From Cerrena zonata (Eukaryota > Basidiomycota > Agaricomycetes > Polyporales > Cerrenaceae): a stretch of 64,000 nucleotides of DNA. The stretch spans positions 1,674,001 to 1,738,000 of the forward strand of contig JASBNA010000004.1 of assembly GCA_038087015.1 (NCBI GenBank). Direction: 5' to 3'. Below, piece after piece: positions 36,664 to 55,017 of the stretch; the first letter of the stretch is position 1, and every line of letters begins with the position of its first letter. The notes beneath the pieces are model-generated. The model searched no databases, was not told the origin of the DNA, and saw only the letters and a list, made by a program, of their open reading frames with translations. The translations under genes and the position numbers were made by a program.

Positions 36664-37865
36664 TCCAGTGAGTCTGGTTATCCGGGTTAGGATGTGGCGT
36701 TATGACAGGAAGCTGGCACGCAACCAAGGCAGGTCAAATACGTGGAACAGAACGATAGTCGTGTTGCTATACGCAGCAGGTTACTACTATCTCAAAGCAA
36801 ACACCAACAGTTGAGATAAGGATGAGTTATTTATGAATTCCATGCGAAATAACGAAATGGGTTCTTTCCACATGGTAGGATTAGGATTAGAGGTTCGGAG
36901 TTTGGATTTTACGCATGTTCAAACCCCGCGGCATGAAACCGAGATCAACGAGTGGAGTTCATGTTGATCTCGGTAGTGTTATTGAGTGTTATTGCAATTC
37001 CTATAGTTTTTGTATAACTGTTTGCAGTGCGAGGCTACAAGAGGCAGCTGTTGACGATGGAAGAGAAATGATCGCATTCTCTGTAGTAATCTCTCGCATA
37101 TATACAGTAACTTAGCGATTTACCAGACGACAGCTAGTGCTAGGATTTGCAGGCGCAATCATTTTCGAAGTTAGCCGTTGCGGATATTCTGATGTCCATT
37201 CATTCAGGCACGTACAACACCGGACTGTACGTACACGGATATGTTTTGGTCATGAGAGAGGGAGAGAAGAATATAATACATATATCAGGAACAAGCCAGC
37301 ACAGCAAGAATTCCGCCGCTTGCATGAGACGCGTAAAGACGCGTAAGCACAGGACCATCTTGACGGGAACCGGGGATCATGATGGACTGACAGATGGGGA
37401 GTGCAGGATCAAGTTGGTCAGAGCAAGGCTCCACCGAATCGGAAAAATGGTAATAGAGAGTGCTTTGGTTGCGCCTGGAGAACGACAGAGTGCTGACGAC
37501 TGTAGCAGGACTGTGGTAGCTAGGTAATAACTGGCAATAAGCCTCGTTTGTGAATGTGCGAAGAGAACGCGATGAGAAAGTGTTCCGTGTTTCAGTGGAA
37601 AGAAGAGATGGAGTTCCATAATAGCTGTCTGCGGGATGGTGGTTGCGAGGGAGTCTGGACCTGGATTGTATTATTCGGACTCCGCTTGTATATGGAGGGA
37701 GAATCTGCGCCCGACTCCACGGGCGCCTTCCCACCGCCTTGCTCGCTGTCGACGACGTTCCCGACGAACACACTCTCCCATCCTTGCCTTACTCTGGCAT
37801 CGAGACCACCGCTCTTTACATTCTAACGGCCTCCGTGCCAATTCTCTCTTTTCTGCAGTTGTAGC
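36664..37865. other. Divergent promoter region of asparaginase and chitin synthase
   Basis: 1.2 kb between head-to-head genes. It contains the 12-bp-arm inverted repeat listed separately. The last 200 bp before the chitin synthase ATG are C/T-rich, as expected of a fungal 5' leader. Confidence 0.55.
36938..36974. repeat. Inverted repeat, 12-bp perfect arms
   Basis: ACCGAGATCAAC at 36938-36949 and its exact reverse complement at 36963-36974, separated by 13 bases. It lies in the shared upstream region of asparaginase and chitin synthase. It could be a dimeric-factor binding site or a transcript hairpin. Confidence 0.8.
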
Positions 37866-40800
37866 ATGGCTTCTCGTGTCAGATACGAAACCACCGACGT
37901 TCCGATCCCTACTCCCCGACTCCCAACATCCTCTGGTACCACCGTTCGACGTGCAAAGACCCTCACACGCCCGGAGCGTAGTGTTGCTCCTATCCCGCTC
38001 ATCAACCCCAACTCCGCGCATCTACCACCTGGCTCAGTGCCCATAGCAGAAGACTCCGGTTTCGATGCTTGGAGGATCTTTTCGCGAATCGTCACCTGGT
38101 GGGCTCCTGCCGTCCTACTCGAGTCTCTCGGAGGCCTCAAGGACAAGAACACAAGACAGGCATGGCGAGAGAAGATAGCCCTTTGCTCTATCATCCTCCT
38201 CCTTTGCGGCGCGGTCGGCTTCCTCACAGTCGGCTTCCAGAAGGTGCTTTGTCCCGAGGCTGCAGCAAGTCTAAGCAAGTTCTCGAGGGCGGGCACAATA
38301 CCGAATACGCTTGGTGTACAGGGCACCCTCTATAACATTACCAAGATCCCTTCGGTCACTGGTGTCGACTTCAACCAATTACTCAAGAGTCCCGGACAAG
38401 ACATCACTACTCTCTTCCAGCGTAGTGCTGCCAGCTTTGCATCTTGCAAGAGCCTCAGCTTCCGTGCCGCTGTTGAGGAACCTTGTGCAGGTGTCGACTG
38501 TCCCCTCCCTACTCTCAGCGACAGTACCCTCTCCTCCCTCGGTTTCCTCAAGACCAACTTTATTGTTGGTTACGATTGGGACCAGGTTGCTAGCCTTCAA
38601 AACTATTTTGTTATCGATGGTGCTGTCCTGAACATGAATTCCTATATGAAACTCCACCCTTCCTCTATTCCCCAAGATAGTGTTGACGCAGCCATTCGCA
38701 CCGTATTGCAATCCACAGGCACCAGTGGAAGGGACGCTACTCGGCTATTCTATTATCGCAACGATGTTCGTCAGGCTGTTCCATGTCTTATGGAACGGTA
38801 TTTCGCTGGTAACATTGACAAGGTCACACCCGGCTGCTTCGTATCGCAGCTCGTTCTTTACGCCGGTCTCATCGTTATTCTCAGTCTCGTCATGGTTCGT
38901 TTCGTCATGGCGTGTTTCTTCAACTGGTTCCTGTCGAGAAGCTTGCTGGACCTCCCGACACGATGTCTCTCAATCGCTCAGCTATCAGCCCAGCGGTGAT
39001 GCCCGAGGGCGCGAATGTTTCTATCGATAACCCCAACGGCACCGCCCCTTGGGCAGGGCCAGGTGGATCGAAGAAGTTGGCAAAACAAAACAAAGCACGT
39101 TCGCTCGCATCATCCACATCTACACTCATTGGTACCGAGAGCGCGGCTCCGATTGTCAGTTTGGCTCAAATTGGTGCGGAGTTGTTTGCAGTTTGCCTGG
39201 TTACCTGTTACTCGGAGGGCGAGGAGAGTTTACGAACGACATTGGACTCGATTTCAACCACCACCTATGCTGACGCACGGAAATTACTCTTTGTGGTAGC
39301 TGATGGTATGATCACTGGTGCGGGCGAGAAGAGAAGCACTCCGGATATTTGCGTGAGCCTTCTGGACGCAGATCCCAGGTTTGGAAATCCAGTGCCGATG
39401 AGTTATATGGCCGTCGGAACTGGTGGGAAGGCAGAGAACCGAGCAATGGTCTATGCTGGTCACTATAGTGAGTTATTCGATATTAATGTGCTTTGCTGGG
39501 TATTTATATTTTCCCTTCAGCCGTTGCTGGTCGCCGTACACCTACTGTCATTGTCGTGAAATGTGGTACTGAGGCTGAGGCTGCGACTGACAAGAAGCCC
39601 GGTAACCGTGGTAAACGGGACAGTCAACTTATTTTGATGAACTTCTTCTCTCGTGTTACCTACAATGACCGAATGACTCCCCTCGATTTCGACTTATTCC
39701 GCAAGATTCACGTACTCATGGGAGTTACTCCAGACTTCTTCGAAGTTTGCTTGATGGTGAGCTATGATGGTCGCCTGCACAATCAGTTTCAACCCTAACA
39801 CATGTCTGAATAGGTTGACGCTGATACGAAAGTCTTCCCGGATTCCCTCAAGTACCTGGTCAACTGTATGCACCACGACCAGATGATTATGGGTGTATGC
39901 GGTGAAACTCGTATAGCGAACAAGCGTCAATCTTGGGTCACAGCCATTCAAGTTTTCGAATACTTCATTTCCCATCACCTTGCCAAAGCGTTCGAATCCG
40001 TATTTGGTGGTGTATCATGTCTTCCTGGATGTTTCTCTATGTTCCGACTTAAAGCCAGAAAGGCCACTGGTGACGATTGGGTACCTCTTATCATCAAACC
40101 GGAAATTGTAAAGGAATATAGCCAGAATGTCGTCACGACTTTGCATCAGAAGAACCTGTTATTACTCGGAGAGGATCGATTCCTAACCACCATTCTCATT
40201 CGTACCTTCCCCAACCGCAAGATGATGTTCCTTCCCCAGGCCCGTTGTAGAACCGTGGTCCCCGATACTTTCTCAGTTCTCCTTTCTCAACGCCGTCGAT
40301 GGATTAACTCGACAATTCACAATCTCATGGAACTGGTTCTCGTACAGAATCTTTGCGGTACATTCTGCTTCAGTATGCAGTTTGTCGTCTTTATGGATCT
40401 CCTTGGTACCGTCGTCCTGCCCATCGCCATCTCGCTGACCTATATGCTCATCGTTGGTATGGCGTTACAACCGCCGAAAACGTTCGAGAGGCCATCCCAC
40501 TTCTCCTGCTTATCGCGGTGTTGGGTCTTCCTGCGATTTTGATTTTGATCACAACGAGGAAAGTGGTGTATGTGTTCTGGATGTTAATTTACCTCTGGCA
40601 CTACCGATATGGAATTTCGTCCTTCCCGTATATGCATTCTGGCACTTCGATGATTTCTCATGGGGTGAAACACGGTACGTGTTTTTCATAAGTACTTTGT
40701 AATGACCGTCACTGACATCTATTTTGCCTACAGAAAAGTAGAAGGTGAAGGCAAAGGTGAAGGTCACGGTGATGGACCCGCTAAAGAGGGAGGTGTCAAC

Positions 40801-43181: not shown

Positions 43182-44260
43182 ATTTCTCATGTCGGTAAGT
43201 TTTTATAAAATGTCTGCATTCAGTGACGTTACTCATACACAATTTGCTCTTATAGAACATCATATTCGACTCATAACCACAGCCTGACTTCAGAGTCAGT
43301 GCTATCGATTACATTCTAACGACACACGAGCCCTTCGTTCTGACATCGAGTGTCACCATCACGATCATGCACCTAACATGCATGTGATTAGATTCCTGCC
43401 AATAACTTATTGCTGGATTATTATTTTCTATTTCGCATACGCGCATTTTACGGAAGGATATAGAGGTGGTGTAAGATACGGGAGGGGAGGATAGTTGGGA
43501 TAGAAGATAGCAGAGGGTCGGTTTTCGCTTGCACTGTATCATATCCATTCACATCGGTGCTCCATACTCGGGGATTGTATCCCTTGTTTACGCATAAAAT
43601 CGTTTGAAACTCACAACGTCTGATTAAGAATGGTACCAGGAATTAAAAGAGACATGAGCTAAACCAACGGCTCGAGTTGCAATGAAGCGATTATTACTTT
43701 TGGCTGAGATGATGGCCGTCCACGAACGTGAAGGTAATCAGTAGTCTAGAGGCGGGCGACGGCGAGTCCCGAGATGATCTACAAATACTGTGCGAGTGAA
43801 TCAAGTTGTCGTAGTTATTATTACTTGGCCGAGGACAGCCCGCTAGTCAGAAGGCTTGTTAGAAGGCATCGTTTGTTGATCAAGAAGCACATATGCATAA
43901 CTCGGGCGCCGAACCTTGGGGTATAAGGGAGCGACGTTAATTTGCCAGTACACCTAAACTTGAGACATACTTCCAAGCACCACTGGACGGTAAGGAGGGC
44001 GTTTCATCTACAATAGTGGTTGACCTGAACTAGTAAGGGACCGCAGAAGATTAAAACATTCATGTCAGCGAGACGGGCAACTATCAACCAACCGGGCACT
44101 CCGGGCGCGCCCTTGGAGGTAAACAGTGATGCAGGATGTGAGGAGAACAGAGAAGTAAACGGATGTCAGAGTTCCCTCACGATAGCATACTCTCGTACGC
44201 CGCGTACCCCATATTTTTCAGTCCTACCAATACAACCTTAACATAGGCTTGAGAAACACC
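43182..44260. other. Gene-poor spacer
   Basis: About 1.1 kb between the pheromone precursor and the first tagged small protein. Searched on both strands for further CaaX-ending short frames; none convincing. Confidence 0.45.
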
Positions 44261-44545
44261 ATGAAGAAACTCTTCACGCACATATTCTCCCGGAAACGCA
44301 ATCGTAATATCCCTACAGACCCATGGCCAGATGCAAAACTCGAGACCAAGCGGCTTACGTTGGATCAGAAACTCGATAAGCAAGAGAGGGTTCGGGCTCG
44401 CAGGTTGATGGTTGCGAGAGCTGAACAGTTGGATGACGAGATATTTCTGCCAACACACGATGAAGGGAGGCCAGATGTAAGGATAGGTGGGGTAAAAGCA
44501 GTGAGAGGGGTCAATGTGAAGCCGAAACCAAAACCTAGTGCTTGA
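44261..44545 (+). CDS. Small basic protein with C-terminal DEGRPDVRIGGVK tag (copy 1)
   Basis: A 94-residue, intronless, strongly basic protein. It starts M-K-K-L-F-T-H-I-F-S-R-K-R-N-R-N, continues with a charged helical stretch (L-D-K-Q-E-R-V-R-A-R-R-L-M) and carries the tag at 44459-44497. A 15-residue Lys/Pro tail ending K-P-K-P-K-P-S-A follows. The tag is identical in two other small proteins in this window (45194-45496 and 48991-49455), while codons differ synonymously, showing selection on the protein. I know no named family with this tag. No signal peptide or membrane helix; the N-terminus could be an amphipathic membrane-binding or mitochondrial-like helix. Function unknown. Confidence 0.65.
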   Translation: MKKLFTHIFSRKRNRNIPTDPWPDAKLETKRLTLDQKLDKQERVRARRLMVARAEQLDDEIFLPTHDEGRPDVRIGGVKAVRGVNVKPKPKPSA

Positions 44546-45193
44546 GATCGGGGAGCCCATGACTTTATTGATTGAATAGGGTCAGTACGTCGCTCATGTA
44601 GAGTAATATTAAACGGTCGATATCACAACACCCATCAAGTTATGGGCTTGAGTAATAAGTTTCAATCGGTAATAGGAATCCCGATGCAAGCCTTTCCACA
44701 CGGTACCGCTTCCGTGTTGGAAATGCCGCAGCCACAGAAGAAAGCATGCATAGCATGTCGATCATTCTGCATAAGACGGGAGCCAACGGTGGAGCTGAAA
44801 GAGTATCCGGAAATAGACTACATAGCCATATAAGGGCAAGTATTAGGGCGTTGGAAGTATATAAGTGACTCACCGGATGGTCAAGCTGTTTAGTTTGATC
44901 CGACTAGGTTCACCCCACCGTAAGGTATGGTGCGCATTCGCATAATACTGATGGTTCTGAAAAGGTACATACAGGCATTTGACACCCCGAGCTACAGCAG
45001 TCGAGTCAAGAATACTGCGATGGACGGCACAGGAGAGAGTACAGAGAATGAACATGTGGGAGCTCCAAAGAGGTCTTCATTATGGATTCGTACGTTGAAT
45101 GGCGTCGTCACGATTTCCCCCTCTGAAGAATGAGACGAGTAGATTGTAAACGGAGGCTAGAGACTAACATCAAGGGATTGCTGTTTAGAGTTC
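44546..45193. other. Spacer between tagged copies 1 and 2
   Basis: About 650 bp. Short frames at 44642-44833 and 44927-45133 are open, but neither has the tag nor another recognisable motif. Part of the latter could be a 5' exon of copy 2 (a GTACGT donor lies near 45090), which I cannot confirm. Confidence 0.35.
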
Positions 45194-45496
45194 ATGCACT
45201 TGGGACGTACATGCCACCGCAAGTCGACTAAAGACTCAAGGACATCGGCAGAAGGCAATACAGAACCTGACTCGGAGGTCCCGACTCGCAGAAGCGACGA
45301 ATCAGTCATAGCTCCCTCCTACGACGACATGGAACATATCATGTATAGTCGTGCACGATCGAGTTCATTGGCACAGCTACCGCCAACAAAAGCTCATATC
45401 GATGCGCCAGAATCGATGTTTGACGAAGGAAGACCGGATGTCAGAATTGGAGGTGTCAAGGTCGCGATCCGACCTGGGCGCCCTTCAAAGCCATAG
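45194..45496 (+). CDS. Small protein with C-terminal DEGRPDVRIGGVK tag (copy 2)
   Basis: A 100-residue frame with a true ATG at 45194 (M-H-L-G-R-T-C-H-R-K-S-T-K-D) and the tag at 45422-45460. The tail V-A-I-R-P-G-R-P-S-K-P ends at TAG. The part between the basic N-terminus and the tag is acidic/polar and unlike copy 1, so only the two ends are conserved. Compared with copy 1, 11 of the 13 tag codons differ, all synonymously. A further 5' exon is possible. No known domain recognised. Confidence 0.6.
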   Translation: MHLGRTCHRKSTKDSRTSAEGNTEPDSEVPTRRSDESVIAPSYDDMEHIMYSRARSSSLAQLPPTKAHIDAPESMFDEGRPDVRIGGVKVAIRPGRPSKP

Positions 45497-46380
45497 GAGA
45501 GATACATGATTGCATGTGCAGACGGCTGGTTCTAGGGCTTTTGGAATATCTCGTGAATTAGCGTGGATTAGAACAGGATATAGACCACAAGATGGGCTGG
45601 AGGTTGGACAACAACGCGTCAACAACACGGTCAACTCGGTTCGGCTTTATCCGAAACCTACTAGTTCACAGCCTCCAAGTCATCATCAACTTGAATGGAC
45701 TGACAATGGTTGTTGTACCACGACCTTCAAGTTACGCAAAAGGTTACGACTAGCAGGCATGCCTTATCGTTCTGAATTGCGTATCTAGTGTTGACTCGAA
45801 ATATAGATCATGAGCATGTCTGAAATAGGTATATCCGTAGCCTGAGGTTGCTTCATTGGCAAATTATGGGAAATACTGGCAGATAGTAATACATGCATCG
45901 CTCGACATAGTATAGGCGTATAGGATATCCCTCCTCTTGCACCGCGTCTCTCCGAGATAGATCATAGATGACATACGGCCATGGTCGCTCAGGCGCATCT
46001 CATCGTGGCAAATTTCACAGCGATTGTGGACAAATCCTCCAGATATTCCAAAAAGGATGGCAAATTATCTGTGCTACGTCGGCTGCCAGGCGTATTGAAG
46101 CAGTTTGTCGCTTATTCTATCTCATCAACTTACAGCTGTCCCGGGCAACTTCTCTAGTGTTAAACTGAACCTAGGAGGATGGTCTGAAGGACCTGCTTTC
46201 AACTTGAACATGACACTACGGAGAATACTTCCTCGTGGCAAAGGGACTTTCATTCCAAGGCAAATCGAATACACTTCTCGTGCGGAGTGCATAAGCCGTA
46301 AGGTCAGGTTTTGGTCAAGACTATGCACCACATTCTCAGCTAGGTGCCTTGACCACGAGACAATTGCATTTTCAAGTCGC
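45497..46380. other. Gene-poor spacer
   Basis: About 880 bp upstream of the lectin-like gene. Open frames at 45510-45788 and 45968-46168 show nothing recognisable. Confidence 0.45.
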
Positions 46381-46388
46381 TATAAAGG
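46381..46388 (+). promoter_or_regulatory. TATA box of the lectin-like gene
   Basis: TATAAAGG, 85 bp before the ATG at 46466, followed by a C/A-rich leader. Confidence 0.55.
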
Positions 46389-46465
46389 TGTCGCTGCTAC
46401 GAGGACCTCCTTAACTGCGAGAGCAACCTCACCTCCCCAACACACCGACACATACTCTTGACACA

Positions 46466-47410
46466 ATGCTCGGAAAATTCTTCACCCCTCTGATATGGCT
46501 CAGTGCAATCTTATTGTTTGGCCTAGCTATCGCGGCTCCAGCCAGCGCATCTCAGGGTATGTTCAACGACTTCTTCATCAGGAGCTTAGACTACACACAC
46601 ATATCGAACTTACTTGGTACTGGTTCTAGCCACTCCGAAGTCAGGAAAGTACCGTATCCAGAGTGCGTCTACAGGCCTATTCATCGATGCGTTGGATTCG
46701 AACCAGGGTAAGTCGAATAGCACTAGGATAACCATTTCATGTTCTTATTACTCTCGCTGGTATCAGCCGATGGCACCCCCGTGAGTACTAGGTTCTCCAG
46801 CCCAAATATAGACTGTTAATTAAACCCCCGTAGGTTGTTGTCGCTCCCCTTAACAACCCAACGACTGCCAATCAAGAGGTGAAATAAAATCTCTTCCTCG
46901 TCAAGCAAGTTTCTAACATACAGCAGTGGACTCTGGACATCAACTCTGGCAACATAGGGACCCTTCAATCGATCAGCAGTTTCGTCAGAATTTTGAGCGG
47001 TCCCAATGTAAGTATCCCTCAACGTTGCCACTGTCTGGTTGAGATAGTAACGATGGCAATGTTTTATGTTTTATTATGCATAGCCCGACCAACTCGTTAC
47101 CAAGCTAGGCACGAAGGAGCAAGGCTTCTTCACACTAGTGGAAAGTTCTAGCGGCGTTTTGTGGGTTCTCTTCACACTCAATCACATTTTGCTTCACAAA
47201 ATGATATCCATACTCCTCGTCATAGCGTATGTGCTACGCCGTCTTCATTTGGATGTTTGACTTCGCCCACTGAGCCCGGTTCCACGGTATGCAATTTTAA
47301 TAATATCCTAGTAGTGTGCTAGCAGTCTCAATATTTTTTGTCTTCAGATTGTACTCGAGCCTTTCACCGGAGCTCGTAACCAGACTTGGAACTTCCAGAC
47401 CGTTGGATAA
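46466..47410 (+). CDS. Secreted beta-trefoil (ricin B-type fold) lectin-like protein
   Basis: A 170-residue secreted protein that only becomes visible after splicing eight small exons: 46466-46556, 46630-46707, 46767-46780 (14 nt), 46834-46878, 46924-47007, 47084-47160, 47226-47286 and 47348-47410. All phases agree and the total is 513 nt. The signal peptide is L-S-A-I-L-L-F-G-L-A-I-A-A-P-A-S-A. The mature protein opens with G-K-Y-R-I-Q-S-A-S-T-G-L-F-I-D-A, typical of the fold's first strand pair. Q-x-W-type repeats follow: N-Q-E-Q-W-T-L-D and, at the end, R-N-Q-T-W-N-F-Q-T-V-G. Such single-domain proteins are common in mushrooms and bind sugars or act in defence; sugar specificity cannot be read from sequence. 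Confidence 0.78.
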
Positions 47411-47735
47411 GAACTGGCGAATGCTACGTTCACACAGATTCGGACTACGTCTACCTGGACTTTCGTTCTATCATACATTACTTATGAACTTTGATTCCTG
47501 GTACCATCACTGGTTCTAAGGTTGATCTTTATATTTTGACTCGCTACCGTTTTCTTCTCTCGTATGGACGTTGCCGAACATGTTTACGTACCTGTTAACG
47601 AATTTGAAAACATCGTTTGGGAACGTAACGCACTATGAGTACAAATCGTCAGGTAGCTCGTCAATATTCCGACAGCATTTCATCCTGATACGAAATCGAG
47701 GCAAGAAAATTTATCGTTGAACGATATTTATTCGG
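47411..47735. other. 3' flank of the lectin-like gene
   Basis: 325 bp with no gene; leads into the palindrome at 47736. Confidence 0.45.
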
Positions 47736-47761
47736 TGATCATCCATGAACATGGATGATCA
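47736..47761. repeat. 26-bp near-perfect palindrome (12-bp arms, 2-bp spacer)
   Basis: TGATCATCCATG, spacer AA, then CATGGATGATCA. Arms are perfect reverse complements. It sits 325 bp after the lectin-like gene in noncoding DNA. Confidence 0.85.
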
Positions 47762-48130
47762 AAAAGATATACATAGGGACATTGAAAGACGCGTAACAGC
47801 ACGACAAATTGTAACAGAACAAGCACCTCCACTCTCAGCTCCATCGTGAATGGATTTGCATCATCGTCGCCTGGGATTAACCATGCTTCGAGCATTCAGG
47901 TCCTATCATGTAGCCGCTAACATCGTAGTCCCTCTGAGGGGACGTAGATGATAAACATGTCTGATAAGAATGGTAGACCTTGGCCGAATAGTGCATACCG
48001 AGGCTCAACATCTGGAGCTAGGCACATCACTAGAAGGTATGCAAAATCGTACAGCTACCTGGGGAGCCGCAAAAGACGTTAGGCACAGAGAGTGATTTGA
48101 CGGAAGTAGATCGTTCCTAATACCTATCCC

Positions 48131-48442
48131 CGCCAAGAATCTTTTCGGAACACGAGAGAATGAGATCGGAGGTACCAACAGTGCGGTTAGATCGAAGCCG
48201 TAGGCCGTCAGTGGCCATCGTGTAAGTGAGAGATATGTATGTATGCTTATTGCTTGCACGTAGACAGCCCCTGCACTGTATGAAGGGACGCCAAGGTCAA
48301 ACCGAGAGAAGGAGATCGGAGGTACCAACAATGCGTCCAAATCAAAGTGATAGACTTCATAGGCCGCCGGCGAGTGAGTGATAGATATGTATGTACGTTT
48401 GTTACATGCATGCAAACAAACAGCCCCGCACCGTACCTTGAA
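48131..48442 (+). repeat. Tandem duplication, two diverged units of about 155 bp
   Basis: Unit A (48131-48288) and unit B (48289-48442) align along their length. Shared stretches include CGCCAAG at the start, GAGATCGGAGGTACCAAC, GATATGTATGTA and a CAGCCCC(T/G) stretch near the end. On the plus strand both contain a reading frame ending E-I-G-G-T-N followed by a Ser/Lys tail and a stop (unit A ...S-K-P, unit B ...K-S-K). This echoes the R-I-G-G-V-K plus basic tail of the tagged proteins. On the minus strand both also read L-L-V-P-P-I-S-F-S-R. No complete gene is evident. Confidence 0.75.
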
Positions 48443-48990
48443 ATGATAACAAGTTCAACAACTTGTCGGTACCTTGGAAGGAAATCAAAAAGATAAAGAT
48501 GAATTGACCGAGCTCCAACTCGTTCGTACCTTAACACCGAGGGGGCAGGTCACGAGGAATGGTACGGAACTCTAAATGAAGTCTAATAAGGACAAGAACA
48601 CAGGATCGTAGGAACTAACACTTATTAAAGTTCAGGCCCACCTCCACGTGTCCCCCAGCAAGAATAAGTCGATACCAGATATAGAACTTCTCTGGAGGTT
48701 ATACCCGCTACAAGAATACGTCAAGGCTGTGTGAAATGTGTAATAAAGGCGAAATGAAAATAACTGACAGTTAGAGGCAATGTATACCAGTTCACTAGAA
48801 GCCATAAGCTGTCCGAACGTTCTTCGGGGTAAGGATATATAGCAAAGGCAGCCTAGACGGAGGAGTTAAGAAGGGGATCCTATCTTGAACTAGAACGGTG
48901 AGGGTGATTCTATGCTTTGCTAGCACTGATGCACTGAACGTCCGGTCTAACTAAAATCCTATCTAGACCAAGAAAAGGAGAGTCAGCAAG
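48443..48990. other. Spacer before tagged copy 3
   Basis: About 550 bp, noncoding as far as I can see. Confidence 0.4.
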
Positions 48991-49455
48991 ATGAACAGAG
49001 ACTTGGAAGCACGTAGGAATGATGGGGATGGTGAAGAGGCACCGGGGGCGGGTTGGTGGTCACGTAAGTCGGTGAATCATTTCTTCGTCAGATTTGGATG
49101 TTCTAAGGAGGAGATTGGTATGATAGGTCTGAAGCAGACACTGCAAGCGGGCATTGCGGCCATGAAGAAACTCATTGATCGCATCTTGGGTCGTAATCAT
49201 GAAGACCGTGACCGACAAACGACTGTAATTCAACCGATACCACCAATGGTATTTCCACCGTATATGGATGTACGCGATGCAGCAGACACGATGATGCTGC
49301 CACAACCACAACCCATGCCTATTATTCCTCCACCCGGAGGATTGCACATGATAGCCCCTGCAGGTCAGTATCTCGGAACGCCAGTAGATGAGGGAAGACC
49401 AGACGTAAGGATCGGAGGTGTCAAAAGCACGAATCGCCCATTGAGGCCCAAGTGA
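48991..49455 (+). CDS. Small protein with C-terminal DEGRPDVRIGGVK tag (copy 3)
   Basis: An open frame from ATG 48991 gives 154 residues. An internal ATG at 49162 gives 97 residues starting M-K-K-L-I-D-R-I-L-G-R-N. That closely matches the N-terminus of copy 1 (M-K-K-L-F-T-H-I-F-S-R-K) and gives the same length class, so 49162 may be the true or ancestral start. A GTAAGT at 49063 also suggests an upstream intron. The centre is Pro/Met-rich (Q-P-I-P-P-M-V-F-P-P-Y-M). The tag lies at 49387-49425, and the tail is S-T-N-R-P-L-R-P-K. Function unknown. Confidence 0.62.
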   Translation: MNRDLEARRNDGDGEEAPGAGWWSRKSVNHFFVRFGCSKEEIGMIGLKQTLQAGIAAMKKLIDRILGRNHEDRDRQTTVIQPIPPMVFPPYMDVRDAADTMMLPQPQPMPIIPPPGGLHMIAPAGQYLGTPVDEGRPDVRIGGVKSTNRPLRPK

Positions 49456-50733
49456 AGGCGACCCAATGGCCGTAACCTAGTTTGAGGCAGTAATAGATAG
49501 ATCAGAGTGTATTCATAATGGTCCAGTTTAGAACCGGGGGCCGGGGTCTGGAAGTGTGGAGGAAAGAAAAAGATGTACTTGGTAGATGAAACGTCGGTAT
49601 ATACACCGGATGGAAAACGCCAACATGTACGCATCTTACCAGGATTCCGAATGGTCGTGAGAATAAGTAGGCTGTCAAGTCGACTGTTGTGAACAACACC
49701 AAACAGTGACCAAAGAGGAATATCAACCGCACACGGGTACAGCTTCTGAAGCTGCAGTGGGAATGAGTACCCGAGCGGTCCTGAATTTCGATGTTCAGTG
49801 TCAGGGCTTGCGGCTCAAAGTAATCAAAAAGCATAGTCAGCAGCGAGCTTCCTGTCAGTATGGAAATGGAACGGACAAGTTGGTGTTGGGCAGGGATAGC
49901 ATTGGTAAGAAGTTAGAGGCACATGGATACACAGTCGTTCATACGACAATCCACCGTCCAGAACGCCGCTTCGAGTCGTCAGGCAATATCAGTCAAAGCG
50001 TTGAGAACAAGCACCCACGCAGCCAAAGCACACGGACGTGGTAGAGACTATCATATAATCATATACTGAAAAAGGAGAGCACAGGTCTAGCTTCACATCG
50101 AACGATTGCAGAAAGACCAACAATCCAGAGGAGCTGTGCAGGAGTTTGAAACTACAGCAAGGTGTTGCTCGTTCTCGTTCTTCGGTTACGGGGCCATTCG
50201 GGAGGTATTGAGCGACAGTCAAGTTCAAGACCGTCGACAGAGCGTAGGACAGGTCTGCTCCAGGCCCCGCCCAGGCCTGCGGATGTACCGTCGGGGCGCC
50301 CGGCTTGCCTAATCGGGTAGTCGCTCTCCTTTCCCAAGCAATTGCAGAAAGTGGAGTAAATGTCCTGGTTGGGCTTGTAGCGTCTTGTTAGGAAGCCCTG
50401 CTTGCCATCTAACCACATCAGCTTCTGCCTGAGCTGTATGTCGTATTTTTGAGTGAAAAAGTGGTGAACGCGAGGTGCGGATGCGGTCTCGAAAAAGCGA
50501 CAGGAGACAGGAATGGGAAGAGGAAAGTGGGAATTTGTATTTGATCTGGGCTCTAGACGGATCCAGAGCAACAATCGCTCCCTCTCAACAACCGTTCGAA
50601 TTCCCTCCAGATTCCTCCTGGCCAGGTATAAGGCCTTGCCATCTTTCCTCCTTCAGGCTCACTTACTTCCGTAAAACTCCACTTGCCTCAAACGCACACT
50701 AGTTCAAAGTATATTTCAAGTCTTCGACCGGCC
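49456..50733. other. Gene-poor spacer
   Basis: About 1.3 kb up to the SKN7-type gene. Open frames on both strands (for example 50152-50574, minus) show no family signature. The last 150 bp are a pyrimidine-rich leader with TATAAGG at 50627. Confidence 0.45.
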
Positions 50734-51916
50734 ATGGAACACTCTGGTCTATCCGCCTCAATGGCTCAAAACATCTCGCTCTCCTCCCTTCTCCGCAACG
50801 CCTCCCTCCAGAATACTCTGGCTACTTCACCTACCTCCACTGACCTCTCAGGTCTCTCTGCTAACCTCTCCAATCTGGTATCAAACACGAACACCGTCTT
50901 CCGATACCCGCAGTCTCTCCATCCTTACCCCTCGCCTACCCTTAGCGATTCGCAATTGCCCATCTCATTACAGTCATGGCAAACGAATCCTATGGTGCAG
51001 CAGCAGGCAAGTGCTTGCAATGAGATGCCATCCATGCCTCGAGGGATCGATTTGCGTCATCCCTCATCTTCACAACCACAACGTGAAGACCGTCGTCGCT
51101 CCGTCTCTCCTCCTCACCATCGTCAATCAAAGTCTGATGATTCCCCTCATGAAGATGAGGAATCGCAGTCTACGACGAGCGAGTTTGTGAAGAAGTTGTA
51201 TAAGTAAGTATCGTCGATTGCTTCAGGGTTCTCAGGCTTGTACTCATACAGAGGACCCAACCTATTTTCAGGATGCTCGAGGACAGTTCGTATTCGAATG
51301 TGGTCTCTTGGACCCCGAGAGGGGATGCATTTGTCGTGAAGGATATGAATGAGTTTTCGCTCACTATTCTTCCGCGCACGTTTAAACACTCGAACTTTGC
51401 GAGTTTCGTGCGACAACTGAACAAGTACGATTTCCACAAAATCAAGAATTCTGATGATGATCCTTTCGGTGAACATGTACGTGCCTTGATGTTTATTCTA
51501 CGTCATCTAGCGCTTTTTATTTACTTTCGTATGTTTTCCCTTTCTTTTAGAGCTGGACATTCCGTCACCCACATTTCCGTCAAAACCGAAAGGAATCTCT
51601 CGAAAAGATCAAGCGTAAAGGCCCCGTTGCACGCAAATCCACCTCTTCCTCTGGCCACCGCGTGTCAGATTCCCCCACACCCCACAGTACTGCCACAATC
51701 GAAGCACTCCAAGCGACGATTGAGACCATGGCACGCACCCAAGAAGAGATGGCCCTGCACATTCGTCACCTGGAGACGAATTACAGGAACGTGTTGAACG
51801 AGATGGTTGATTTCCAGAGGAACCAGGCAAGACAGGATGGGTTGTTGCAGAATCTGATACAGATTGTGCTCCAACCGGAGAACAACGATTTGGCGGGAGC
51901 TACCCTTTCCTCCTAA
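50734..51916 (+). CDS. SKN7: HSF-type transcription factor: DNA-binding and coiled-coil half of SKN7/Prr1
   Basis: A 346-residue nuclear protein in three exons (50734-51203, 51272-51476, 51551-51916). The Ser-rich N-terminus is followed by an HSF DNA-binding domain: F-V-K-K-L-Y-K-M-L-E-D, V-S-W-T-P-R-G-D-A-F-V-V, the recognition helix F-A-S-F-V-R-Q-L-N-K-Y-D-F-H-K, then W-T-F-R-H-P-H-F and I-K-R-K. Next is a coiled coil with L-E-T-N-Y-R-N-V-L-N-E-M-V-D-F-Q-R and Q-D-G-L-L-Q-N-L-I-Q, diagnostic of SKN7 rather than Hsf1. It then stops at TAA 51914-51916, without the receiver domain SKN7 normally carries. That domain is encoded about 1.4 kb downstream (53313-55017). SKN7 mediates osmotic, oxidative and wall stress responses. 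Confidence 0.85.
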
Positions 51917-53312
51917 TTCTATTCGGCTAACTTATTCTTGCTCGTGTTTTCGATTTTGCTTTTTTCGATTTTCGACATTGACATACTGGTTCACCTTTGC
52001 TCCCTTTTTTACCCCGTCCTTTGTTTCGAATCTCTCCTACCCCGCCGCCCGCCTGATCGTCTCCTCCTATCCTTGTCCTCTGTCCGTATCCTTCACCCCC
52101 CAACTCACATATGCCACTCTGATACGATGGCTTATTCGAACATTGGCCATTTAGCTCTTCCTTCGAAAAGTGGACCTGTTGAAGGTAGTCTATACGTTAT
52201 GTCATTAATTGTGTATTACCACGTGTGTTTTGTTGCGTGGATGTACAACGTTCTATTCATGTATTACTAGGTATATAGGATTGAGCAATCACAACTCAAA
52301 GGAAGAGACCTTTTGATAGATTCATTTTTTGTGTGCTGCTTTGGAATGACGTAATGGTGGTTGATTGGGCGGCTCTGGGCTGTCTGAAGTGTACGTTGTG
52401 CTTGGACACGTTTACATTGTTCGGTACCCTTTGCACAGAAGCGTTGTGGATGCTGGACAGGACTTTAGCTACGAGCCTCTCGCTGTATTTTGAAATGGAA
52501 AATCGGCGTTTGGAAAGGAATAAAGTGGTATGCGGTATTGCTTCAAAAGGGAGGAGCGGCAAGAGGCGAGTGTGAGCGTGTACGTGTGGGGTCGAGGGTC
52601 CAGAATGGTCGGCGGTGGTGGATGCCGAGAGAGGAATAGGCTGGAAGGAAGGGATCTAGACAGGGCCGCTTTCAGGCTCTCTCATGACCTCGAATCGAAA
52701 CCTCCCTCCTCAGCTCGGCTGGGATCTAGGCCCGCGGGATGGCCAGACTGTGTGCTGATGCTGGGGCTGATGCTCTTCATGACCGTTACCGTCTGACTAC
52801 CCTCCCTTGCTCGTAGATCTCCGTCCACTCTGTCATGCTCTCTTTCTACCCATCTCTTCAATAACAACCTCCTCTGCCTCCTCATTTGACTCTCTTTTTG
52901 CCAGATTTTTGTACTCGTCTCATGAGAGTGAGAGTCTAGATACTCCCAATCTCGAGATTTGGTCATCTCTCCGGCTCTATTTCTCCCAGCCATTTCTCCT
53001 GCGCTGACACTTATCCTCCCACTCTCTCGTACTCTTCTTTCCCGGTACGTCCTTCCGCCCTGCGCTATCCCTCCTTGACCCCGTCCCCCATCTCTGTCTT
53101 GTCGCCCGTACCTGTCAACTGACCCACGGCTTTTCATTCCCAGAGCTTCCTTCCTCTTGGTGCCTCCCATCCATTTTTGCTGCCGACAATTGTAGGGTCC
53201 GTTATTTCTGACGTCCCATCCTGCGCAGTGCCTCTACTGTGCCTTGTCTCGTCGCACTCTGGATACTCCATCTCAACTCTCTGTGAAGCTTTTATCCAGG
53301 CTTCACAAAGTT
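51917..53312. other. Spacer between the two SKN7-like genes
   Basis: 1.4 kb with two pyrimidine-rich tracts (about 51960-52110 and 52850-53160). The second looks like a promoter/leader for the downstream gene. I found no exon that would link the two coding parts. Confidence 0.5.
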
Positions 53313-55017
53313 ATGGTCACTCCATCATATCGCCAAACTGCGACCAAGAACGATAAGCAAACACAATCGACCACCACCCTCCTCGATTACTCTTCCGCCA
53401 TGGTTAACGGTTCTGCTGGAAACACGACACTACCAGGACTAAGACGTTCATCCACAACTCCCTCCTCTTCACGGCATGGTTCCCCATCACCTGCAGCACC
53501 CTTTTCGTCCTCACCTGCGAGGGACTCCCGTCGCTCCGGTTCGAACAAAATCCGAAGGTCCCTTTCCCCGCACTCTGTGGTCAAGGCGCTACCTCGTATC
53601 AGACGAACCAGTAGCACTTCCATTTCCAGCGACGATACTCTCTGCACCGAATCTTCATTTCTCACCTCATGCACTTCATCCCCGTCTTTGCCACCTTCCT
53701 CCTTGTCAGGTACACCAAGTAATTCAAATAGCTCAAGCAGCTCAAATAGCTCAATCTCACCTCAGCCTGAATCTAAACCCAAACAACCCCCAACAACAAC
53801 CACTCCGTCCATGAGGAGTAGCCGTTCAGCAAAGGTCGTCTCGCCAACTCTGAGATGGGCCGTCCCTCCTCGCGTGTTGTTGGTGGATGATGATGTGGTC
53901 TATCGGATGTTGAGTGGGAAGCTGTTGCAGGTGTTTGGCTGTATGATTGATATTGCGGTGGATGGTGCGGCTGCGGTCAGTAAGATGAATTTGGAGAAAT
54001 ACGATTTGGTGTTCATGGTACGTTTGTCGCCTCATCATTTGCGCTATCCTTTTGAGATCGCATTCATTTTTGTTATAACCTCTTCAATTTTATACGTTGA
54101 TTTCATAAGCCCTTTTTGCCTATTCCGTGAGATTGAACTAACTGACGGTCAAACTTGTTCCCTTCTTTTTGTGCTCTTTTTGTAGGATATCATGATGCCC
54201 AAGCTGGATGGTCTCAGCGCGACCTCTCTAATCCGACAATTTGACCACCTTACTCCCATCATCTCAGTGACGAGCAATTATCAGCCTGATGAAGTCGTCG
54301 CCTACTATTCTTCAGGTATGAATGATGTGCTGCCCAAACCGTTTACAAGAGATGGGGTCCATGGAATTCTTGAAGTACGTCCCCCCCTTTCCCAACCAGC
54401 CATTTTTACTGACCAAGCGCTAGAAACATCTTGTACACCTAAAAGCTATACAGACAGCTGTCGCCTCTACCTCTTCATCGCCGCATTATATAACTACACC
54501 TCCACCCACACCCGTTCCTTTCACCATCCCGCCCCTGTCACAACGACTGGCTTCGCCTCTTTCAGCTGTTGAGACACTGCAAACCCTACCGATCATGGAT
54601 GCAGTTGCAGAAAAGCCGTTGTCTGTCTCGACCGCGGAGACATTCCCGGTTTCCGTTTCCGCACATTCCCAGCCTTCTCATACAGAGGCGCGTCCCCCCT
54701 CACGTTCCCCCTCTCCTATGACTTTCGCTTACGCACCCCCACTACCATCCCCTTTACTTCTTTCTTCGTTACCTCCTTCGTCTCCTTCGGTACCTACCGG
54801 TCATGATCATGATCGAATAGCTCGCCTGTCTCGCGAGTTTGTAAACACTCAAGATGAAACAACCTCCGCAGCCGGTCTGAAGCGGTCGCGAGACTGCATA
54901 ACTCCTCCAGGCCAGCCAGAGAGGAAACGGAGTGTCAAAAAACCTAGGGGCGGTGAAAGTCTGGATGTAGTCGCTATCCGGGGTTCAATGGATTCTGCTT
55001 CGTTGGGGTCATCATAA
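53313..55017 (+). CDS. SKN7: Response-regulator receiver protein: receiver half of SKN7
   Basis: A 495-residue protein in three exons (53313-54017, 54186-54374, 54424-55017) from the first in-frame ATG. About 180 Ser/Thr/Pro-rich residues precede a receiver domain: V-L-L-V-D-D-D (acid pocket), Y-D-L-V-F-M-D-I-M-M-P with the phospho-acceptor Asp spanning the first intron, I-S-V-T-S-N-Y (switch Ser/Thr), and L-P-K-P-F-T (conserved Lys). The G-M-N-D-V-L-P-K-P-F-T and L-E-K-H-L ending is that of SKN7 receivers. It would accept phosphate from a hybrid histidine kinase through Ypd1. A disordered tail with K-R-S-R-D and K-K-P-R basic patches could be a nuclear signal. It lacks a DNA-binding domain, which is supplied by the gene upstream. 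Confidence 0.83.

Follow-up and report, generated by a model that had tools for sequence, protein, structure and literature searches.

Why do three small fungal proteins with unrelated middles end in one and the same peptide? The question is raised by a cluster of frames in a 64-kb stretch of contig JASBNA010000004.1 of Cerrena zonata (hereafter the window, meaning the whole stretch analysed), where three frames on the + strand between 44.2 and 49.5 kb carry the peptide DEGRPDVRIGGVK in identical form (13/13) near their C-termini. We call this peptide the tag and the frames copies 1 to 3:

44459..44497, + strand, tag of copy 1 (DEGRPDVRIGGVK)
45422..45460, + strand, tag of copy 2 (DEGRPDVRIGGVK)
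49387..49425, + strand, tag of copy 3 (DEGRPDVRIGGVK)

A preliminary description of the window had placed the tags at these positions in open frames, followed by tails of 9–15 residues, and both points hold: each match is exact, and the stop codon lies 15, 11 and 9 residues after the tag in copies 1, 2 and 3. The next closest match in a six-frame translation of the window agrees with the tag at only 6 of 13 residues. We demonstrate that the cluster belongs to a real, old, protein-coding family with a C-terminal motif that is apparently undescribed. As to its function, we tentatively favour, with slightly less than even confidence, the view that these short fungal proteins form an undescribed family, are mostly disordered, stay inside the cell and would present a docking peptide to one conserved partner.

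The three tags differ in 11 of 13 codons between copies 1 and 2, and in 8 of 13 both between copies 1 and 3 and between copies 2 and 3. The corresponding 11, 8 and 8 nucleotide differences are all at third positions and all synonymous. Recomputation gave the same codon counts as those first reported for copies 1/2 and 1/3. In a simulation that placed as many random substitutions on the tag as each pair shows, the peptide remained intact in 0 of 200,000 runs for each of the three pairs, and a mean of 5.3–6.9 residues was expected to change. The purely synonymous differences together with the simulation indicate that selection acts on the protein, and the same differences disfavour recent gene conversion as the reason for the identity of the tags. 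The old divergence under strong protein-level selection that had been proposed is thereby borne out.

Protein searches assembled ten proteins, P0001 to P0010, and the last round returned these ten and none new. Two are annotated in this assembly, namely the Cerrena zonata hypothetical proteins QCA50_004447 (P0001, 143 residues) and QCA50_004450 (P0003, 133 residues), which contain the frames of copies 1 and 3. P0004 is copy 2, a frame known from the window only and with no public source, and the remaining seven come from other contigs. All seven of these outside proteins have 12 or all 13 of the tag residues. P0002, with the tag DEGRPDVRIGGIK, shares 69% identity with copy 1 across 96% of the 94-residue frame. 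P0005 and P0006 carry the exact tag, match the helix sequence of copy 3 and have L-x-x-x-LQAGIA-x-x-x-KL-x-DR-x-x-GRN in common with it. In P0007 the tag reads DEGKPDVRIGGVK and in P0008 to P0010 DEGRPDVRIRGVK, and the N-terminal part of these proteins differs from the others. The motif consensus is D-[ES]-G-[RK]-P-D-V-R-I-[GR]-G-[VI]-K. Since P0005 closely resembles P0006, and P0008 to P0010 closely resemble P0007, the seven outside proteins represent about three lineages. No annotated protein from another named fungus was returned by the protein searches, which is weak evidence of rarity because annotation often overlooks small genes with introns. The basidiomycete origin presupposed by the preliminary description is correct, the source being Cerrena zonata, and the tag occurs beyond the three frames described there, in the seven outside proteins and in a further copy on C7 (see below). 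The string FWGRTL in P0007, P0009 and P0010 resembles a translated intron start (compare WIRTL at the copy 2 donor); judged by the protein letters only, these three may be unspliced genomic calls that share an intron place.

Relatedness beyond the tag was assessed for 10 pairs by removing the tag and everything after it and comparing each pairwise alignment with 2000 shuffles. Copy 1 and P0002 as well as copy 3 and P0005 are related beyond the tag (0 of 2000 shuffles each reached the score), and in both pairs the remainder has diverged around a preserved tag (12/13 in the first pair, 13/13 in the second). The P0002 and P0005 relations indicate that the genes are real and old. For the other eight pairs the number of shuffles reaching the score was 220 (P0001/P0003), 434 (P0003/copy 2), 167 (P0001/copy 2), 1540 (P0003/P0007), 1932 (P0001/P0005), 106 (P0005/P0007), 1930 (P0001/P0007) and 1472 (copy 2/P0007). 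Between lineages, likeness is limited to the tag and an R/K-P-rich tail. Relation within lineages without relation between them implies that at least two lineages predate the parting of the sequences and that each kept the tag. The middles of the three window copies are unrelated by this test, as had been stated. The M-K-K-L-x3-I string described at the start of copies 1 and 3 is present in both, but this likeness is weaker than described: the pre-tag parts of the two copies align like shuffles.

Further copies were sought with codon-degenerate patterns over the 55.5-Mb assembly, scans that would miss diverged tags. The pattern DEG[RS]PDV has three matches, which are the three window tags, and PDV[RS]I[GRS]G has four (reversed-pattern control, 0). 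A pattern D-x-G-z-P-D-V-[RS]-[IVLM], in which z stands for R, K or a few others, finds the identical four places (reversed control, 0). The fourth place is copy 4, at G000:C7:965554-965673 (L019:1489-1656), a short frame with the tag DSGKPDVRIGGVK followed by MQTSVHSAVKTQK and a stop, which had first been met by the P0007 query at an E value of 0.088. Its tag differs from those of copies 1, 2 and 3 at 11, 13 and 11 nucleotides and in just two residues. Upstream lies the frame MASKDQEPKKTVLEKDKLDDVEDTVT with a C|GTGAGT donor; from the ATG at L019:1176, no gene model with one or two introns was obtained and 63 with up to three, so that no model can be preferred. Protein queries of the genome gave no additional convincing copy: the copy 1 query matches itself and copy 2 (E 0.016), not copy 3, the P0007 query matches copies 2 and 3 and the C7 copy, not copy 1, and a P0003 match on C61 (E 0.52, residues 33-100, without the tag) was rejected as chance.

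The gene models of the window copies are as follows:

44062..44194, + strand, exon 1 of copy 1 (MSARRAT...TIAYS), as in QCA50_004447; P0001 is the one-intron model, one of 7 models listed
44195..44246, + strand, phase-1 intron of copy 1, 52 nucleotides (C|GTACGC...ACATAG|), in agreement with P0001
44247..44545, + strand, exon 2 of copy 1: basic segment MKKLFTHIFSRKRNRN, linker, tag, tail AVRGVNVKPKPKPSA and stop
45020..45089, + strand, putative exon 1 of copy 2 (MDGTGESTENEHVGAPKRSSLWI), one of 17 models listed
45090..45188, + strand, putative phase-1 intron of copy 2, 99 nucleotides, by analogy with copies 1 and 3
45189..45496, + strand, exon 2 of copy 2: linker, tag, tail VAIRPGRPSKP and stop
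48991..49063, + strand, exon 1 of copy 3 (MNRDLEARRNDGDGEEAPGAGWWS), as in QCA50_004450; P0003 is the one-intron model, one of 26 models listed
49064..49126, + strand, phase-1 intron of copy 3, 63 nucleotides (C|GTAAGT...GATAG|), in agreement with P0003
49127..49455, + strand, exon 2 of copy 3: predicted helix RLKQTLQAGIAAMKKLIDRILGR, proline-rich linker, tag, tail STNRPLRPK and stop

In P0001 and P0003 the donor follows a C that opens an arginine codon (...YS|R and ...WWS|R). The copy 2 model, for which public proteins offer no confirmation, was picked for its phase-1 donor C|GTACGT, which resembles those of copies 1 and 3 and joins to a glutamine codon. The first exons of copies 1, 2 and 3 have net charges of -2, -2 and -3 and the second exons of +12, +1 and +5. 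On these models, the copies have a common layout of a mildly acidic exon 1, one phase-1 intron (putative in copy 2) and an exon 2 with a start that in copy 3 is predicted to form a helix, a disordered linker, the tag and a tail. The same place and phase of the intron (for copy 2 as modelled) and the position of the tag in the last exon suggest shared descent of the three genes, not exon capture.

AlphaFold2, run on P0003 with the ten-sequence alignment, predicts one helix at residues 20-47 and otherwise no structure, the tag included, although a mean predicted local distance difference test score of 58 and a predicted template modelling score of 0.21 make this an indication only. The same helix has the top helical moment of P0003, P0005 and P0006 (0.53, 0.63 and 0.64). 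As an amphipathic membrane anchor the copy 3 helix was rejected, because its moment is not beyond that of shuffles, and anchoring is therefore a guess. Signal checks covered 11 sequences, namely P0001 to P0010 and the copy 2 model. None has a hydrophobic stretch like a signal peptide or membrane span (top 19-residue Kyte-Doolittle mean 1.16); for signal peptides this negative is carried by P0001, P0003 and the copy 2 model, since several of the others probably lack their true first exon. Likewise, none of the 11 has a dibasic pair within 6 residues of the tag, a CaaX end or the strict PxIxIT pattern, and a class-II SH3-type pattern occurs once, in the tail of copy 2. R/K-P pairs follow the tag in each of P0001 to P0010 (KPKPKP, KPRP, RPLRP, RPGRP, RPGKP, RPPTRP), so that 10 of 11 tagged sequences have such a tail, the exception being the C7 copy. 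Pfam scans at E up to 1 found nothing in the three window frames, and none of the ten proteins has a precomputed Pfam domain. Against the PDB, the tail profile gave no match, and the two matches of the family profile are at chance level (E 0.2 and 0.39). The string DEGRPDVRIGG is absent from the literature searched, which excludes most subscription papers, and literature searches for similar families found no relevant one. These results agree with the preliminary description, which knew of no described family with this tag. They do not support the secreted effector or processed peptide that had also been considered, given that hydrophobic stretches and dibasic pairs near the tag are both lacking; a role of the tag as a recognition signal is plausible.

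What could keep 13 residues nearly frozen behind a freely changing linker and a variable N-terminal part? From this contrast we infer that the tag docks, that the N-terminal part positions the protein and that a single conserved protein is the partner. The tag would bind to that partner in extended form, and the N-terminal part and the linker would set where and how far the partner is held. Several observations weigh against this reading. Docking motifs described so far mostly keep fewer positions fixed, and 13 nearly fixed ones could point to more than docking. A fold formed on binding, or self-assembly, might also be compatible with the low-confidence model from ten sequences. Neither the tag nor its setting is entirely constant: three of the seven outside proteins have R in place of G at position 10, and copy 4 is without the R/K-P-rich tail, offers no preferable gene model and might be decaying. 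The N-terminal likeness of copies 1 and 3 is not significant (220/2000), the second exon of copy 2 is scarcely basic at +1, and shuffles of the same 40 residues reached the helical moment in 1077 (copy 3), 2776 (copy 1), 211 (copy 2) and 414 (P0005) of 5000 cases.

The surroundings of the cluster comprise a chitin synthase upstream (Pfam matches in 37827-40539) and, downstream, an HSF-type DNA-binding frame at 51204-51794 and a response-regulator match below its cut-off at 53196-54182. Between copies 2 and 3, the stretch 46265-47276 looks gene-like: its N-terminal segment appears hydrophobic by eye, and it weakly matches a ricin-B-type lectin (E 0.058, below the curated cut-off). Also between these copies, 48153-48418 holds a tandem unit of ~150 bp in two diverged copies (45 nucleotides at 84% and 53 at 75%). 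A DNA search with 43600-50400, which skips very common words so that a high-copy element could escape, returned the region itself and three pieces of one other place, all from the lectin-like neighbour. These pieces lie at G000:C4:1785143-1786118 on the opposite strand, ~64 kb downstream, and are 72-85% identical. The neighbours of the C7 copy are hydrolase-like, sirtuin-like and two F-box-like frames, as read by ourselves from the open reading frame lists rather than by a family search. We saw no gene common to the window cluster and the C7 locus, and thus the context names no partner.

Other explanations of the conserved terminus have to be weighed against docking. The tagged proteins could be precursors of peptide signals of the plant CLE/CEP/IDA type, from whose variable precursor a C-terminal peptide of ~13 residues would be cut out and released. 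The general plan is the same, with a short precursor, a variable middle, one conserved C-terminal peptide and few paralogues. One report describes this plan for nematode and fungal relatives of CLE/CEP/IDA, as well as a rust-fungus IDA-like protein that lacks a signal domain (PMC8618561). Even if proteases other than those cutting at dibasic pairs are possible, the lack of such pairs near the tag and of hydrophobic stretches in the 11 sequences, and of Pfam matches to the three window frames, makes this origin unlikely. We regard as comparably improbable that the tag is a homotypic or amyloid-type self-association motif, perhaps as in fungal NLR-effector pairs. The tag is C-terminal and short and is shared by proteins with unlike N-terminal parts, as this explanation would have it, and NLR-linked amyloid motifs have been found in basidiomycetes (PMC9815663). 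In the systems described there, the motif also stands at the N-terminus of an NLR, classically encoded by the adjacent gene, with non-adjacent pairs suspected (PMC9815663). In Cerrena zonata, however, the motif patterns occur at four places only, three in the cluster and one ending the short C7 frame, in scans that could miss diverged counterparts and were made without a genome-wide listing of NLR genes. No NLR domain was found in the 20 window stretches scanned against Pfam (the window has 257 frames of at least 75 codons), and the tag contains charged residues and a proline. Both explanations are less likely than docking.

That the copies are what remains of a mobile element or virus, with a terminal segment in common by chance, appears very unlikely. 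Such an origin would fit the clustering of the copies and the lack of large open frames in this stretch between the chitin synthase and the HSF-type gene, but the tag is under protein-level selection, and the DNA search, with its skipping of very common words, finds nothing beyond the region itself and the lectin-like pieces. Within these limits there is also no sign of a transposon, a possibility for which the preliminary description had allowed. No relative was found in IMG/VR, in phage records (P0005 query only) or in prokaryote genomes. The 8-residue string DEGRPDVR occurs in 5 viral-contig and 120 prokaryote stretches, none of which encodes a relative at a tblastn E value of 1e-3 or below, so that DEGRPDVR alone is not diagnostic. 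We give hardly any credence to the idea that the stretch is kept as an RNA or DNA element, such as a splice signal or regulatory element, and not as a peptide. A donor-like GTAAGG does lie within the tag codons of copies 1 (44477) and 3 (49405), which would fit, and splicing could conceivably skip the tag. Copies 2 and 4 lack GTAAGG, whose presence in the other two is probably incidental, and among the window copies third positions vary (11, 8 and 8 differences) whereas first and second positions are invariant.

A near-fixed run of 13 residues in apparently disordered proteins that are otherwise free to change points to an unchanging partner or machine. Orphan families are common in fungi, which lessens the surprise, whereas conservation this extreme and this local heightens it. 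It is possible, if rather doubtful, that bracket fungi have a docking system in which fast-changing, unrelated-looking small proteins plug into one partner by the same 13-residue C-terminal key. If so, the partner could be re-targeted by altering everything but the key. As a ready-made bait, the tag could reveal the partner through one peptide pull-down in a wood-decay fungus. The family additionally cautions that annotation easily overlooks such groups: no public source exists for copy 2, and the returned proteins do not include the C7 copy.

Several known systems come closest to the tagged proteins. Basidiomycete mating pheromone precursors are likewise encoded by small clustered fungal genes; the tagged proteins have neither a CaaX end (11 sequences) nor linkage to STE3, and a mating-pheromone precursor was rejected as an explanation. 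STE3 pheromone-receptor matches cluster at G000:C46:298453-333781, perhaps the B mating-type locus, and others lie on C4 (492-496 kb), C5, C13 and C57, some with stops in the matched stretch. The tag cluster lies at 1.72 Mb on C4, and the nearest STE3 match on that contig, at 0.49 Mb, is ~1.2 Mb off. The docking motif of calcineurin, PxIxIT (.P[^P]I[^P][IV][^P]), has a P-x-hydrophobic-x-hydrophobic spacing that is also seen in P-D-V-R-I of the tag; none of the 11 sequences matches the pattern, and conservation of the tag spans 13 positions. Ubiquitin-like precursors are cut after GG, and the tag similarly has ...V-R-I-G-G before a short C-terminal extension, but the low-confidence model predicts no beta-grasp and three of the seven outside proteins have R-G instead of G-G. 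In CLE/CEP/IDA proteins a variable domain is followed by one short conserved peptide near the C-terminus, and the same holds for the tagged family, whose members differ in lacking a visible signal peptide or a dibasic site next to the tag and seem to stay intracellular. Finally, although no tag-pattern match lies at an NLR N-terminus and the tag is charged and proline-bearing, it resembles the HET-s-type NLR amyloid motifs in being a short C-terminal motif carried by proteins with unlike N-termini.

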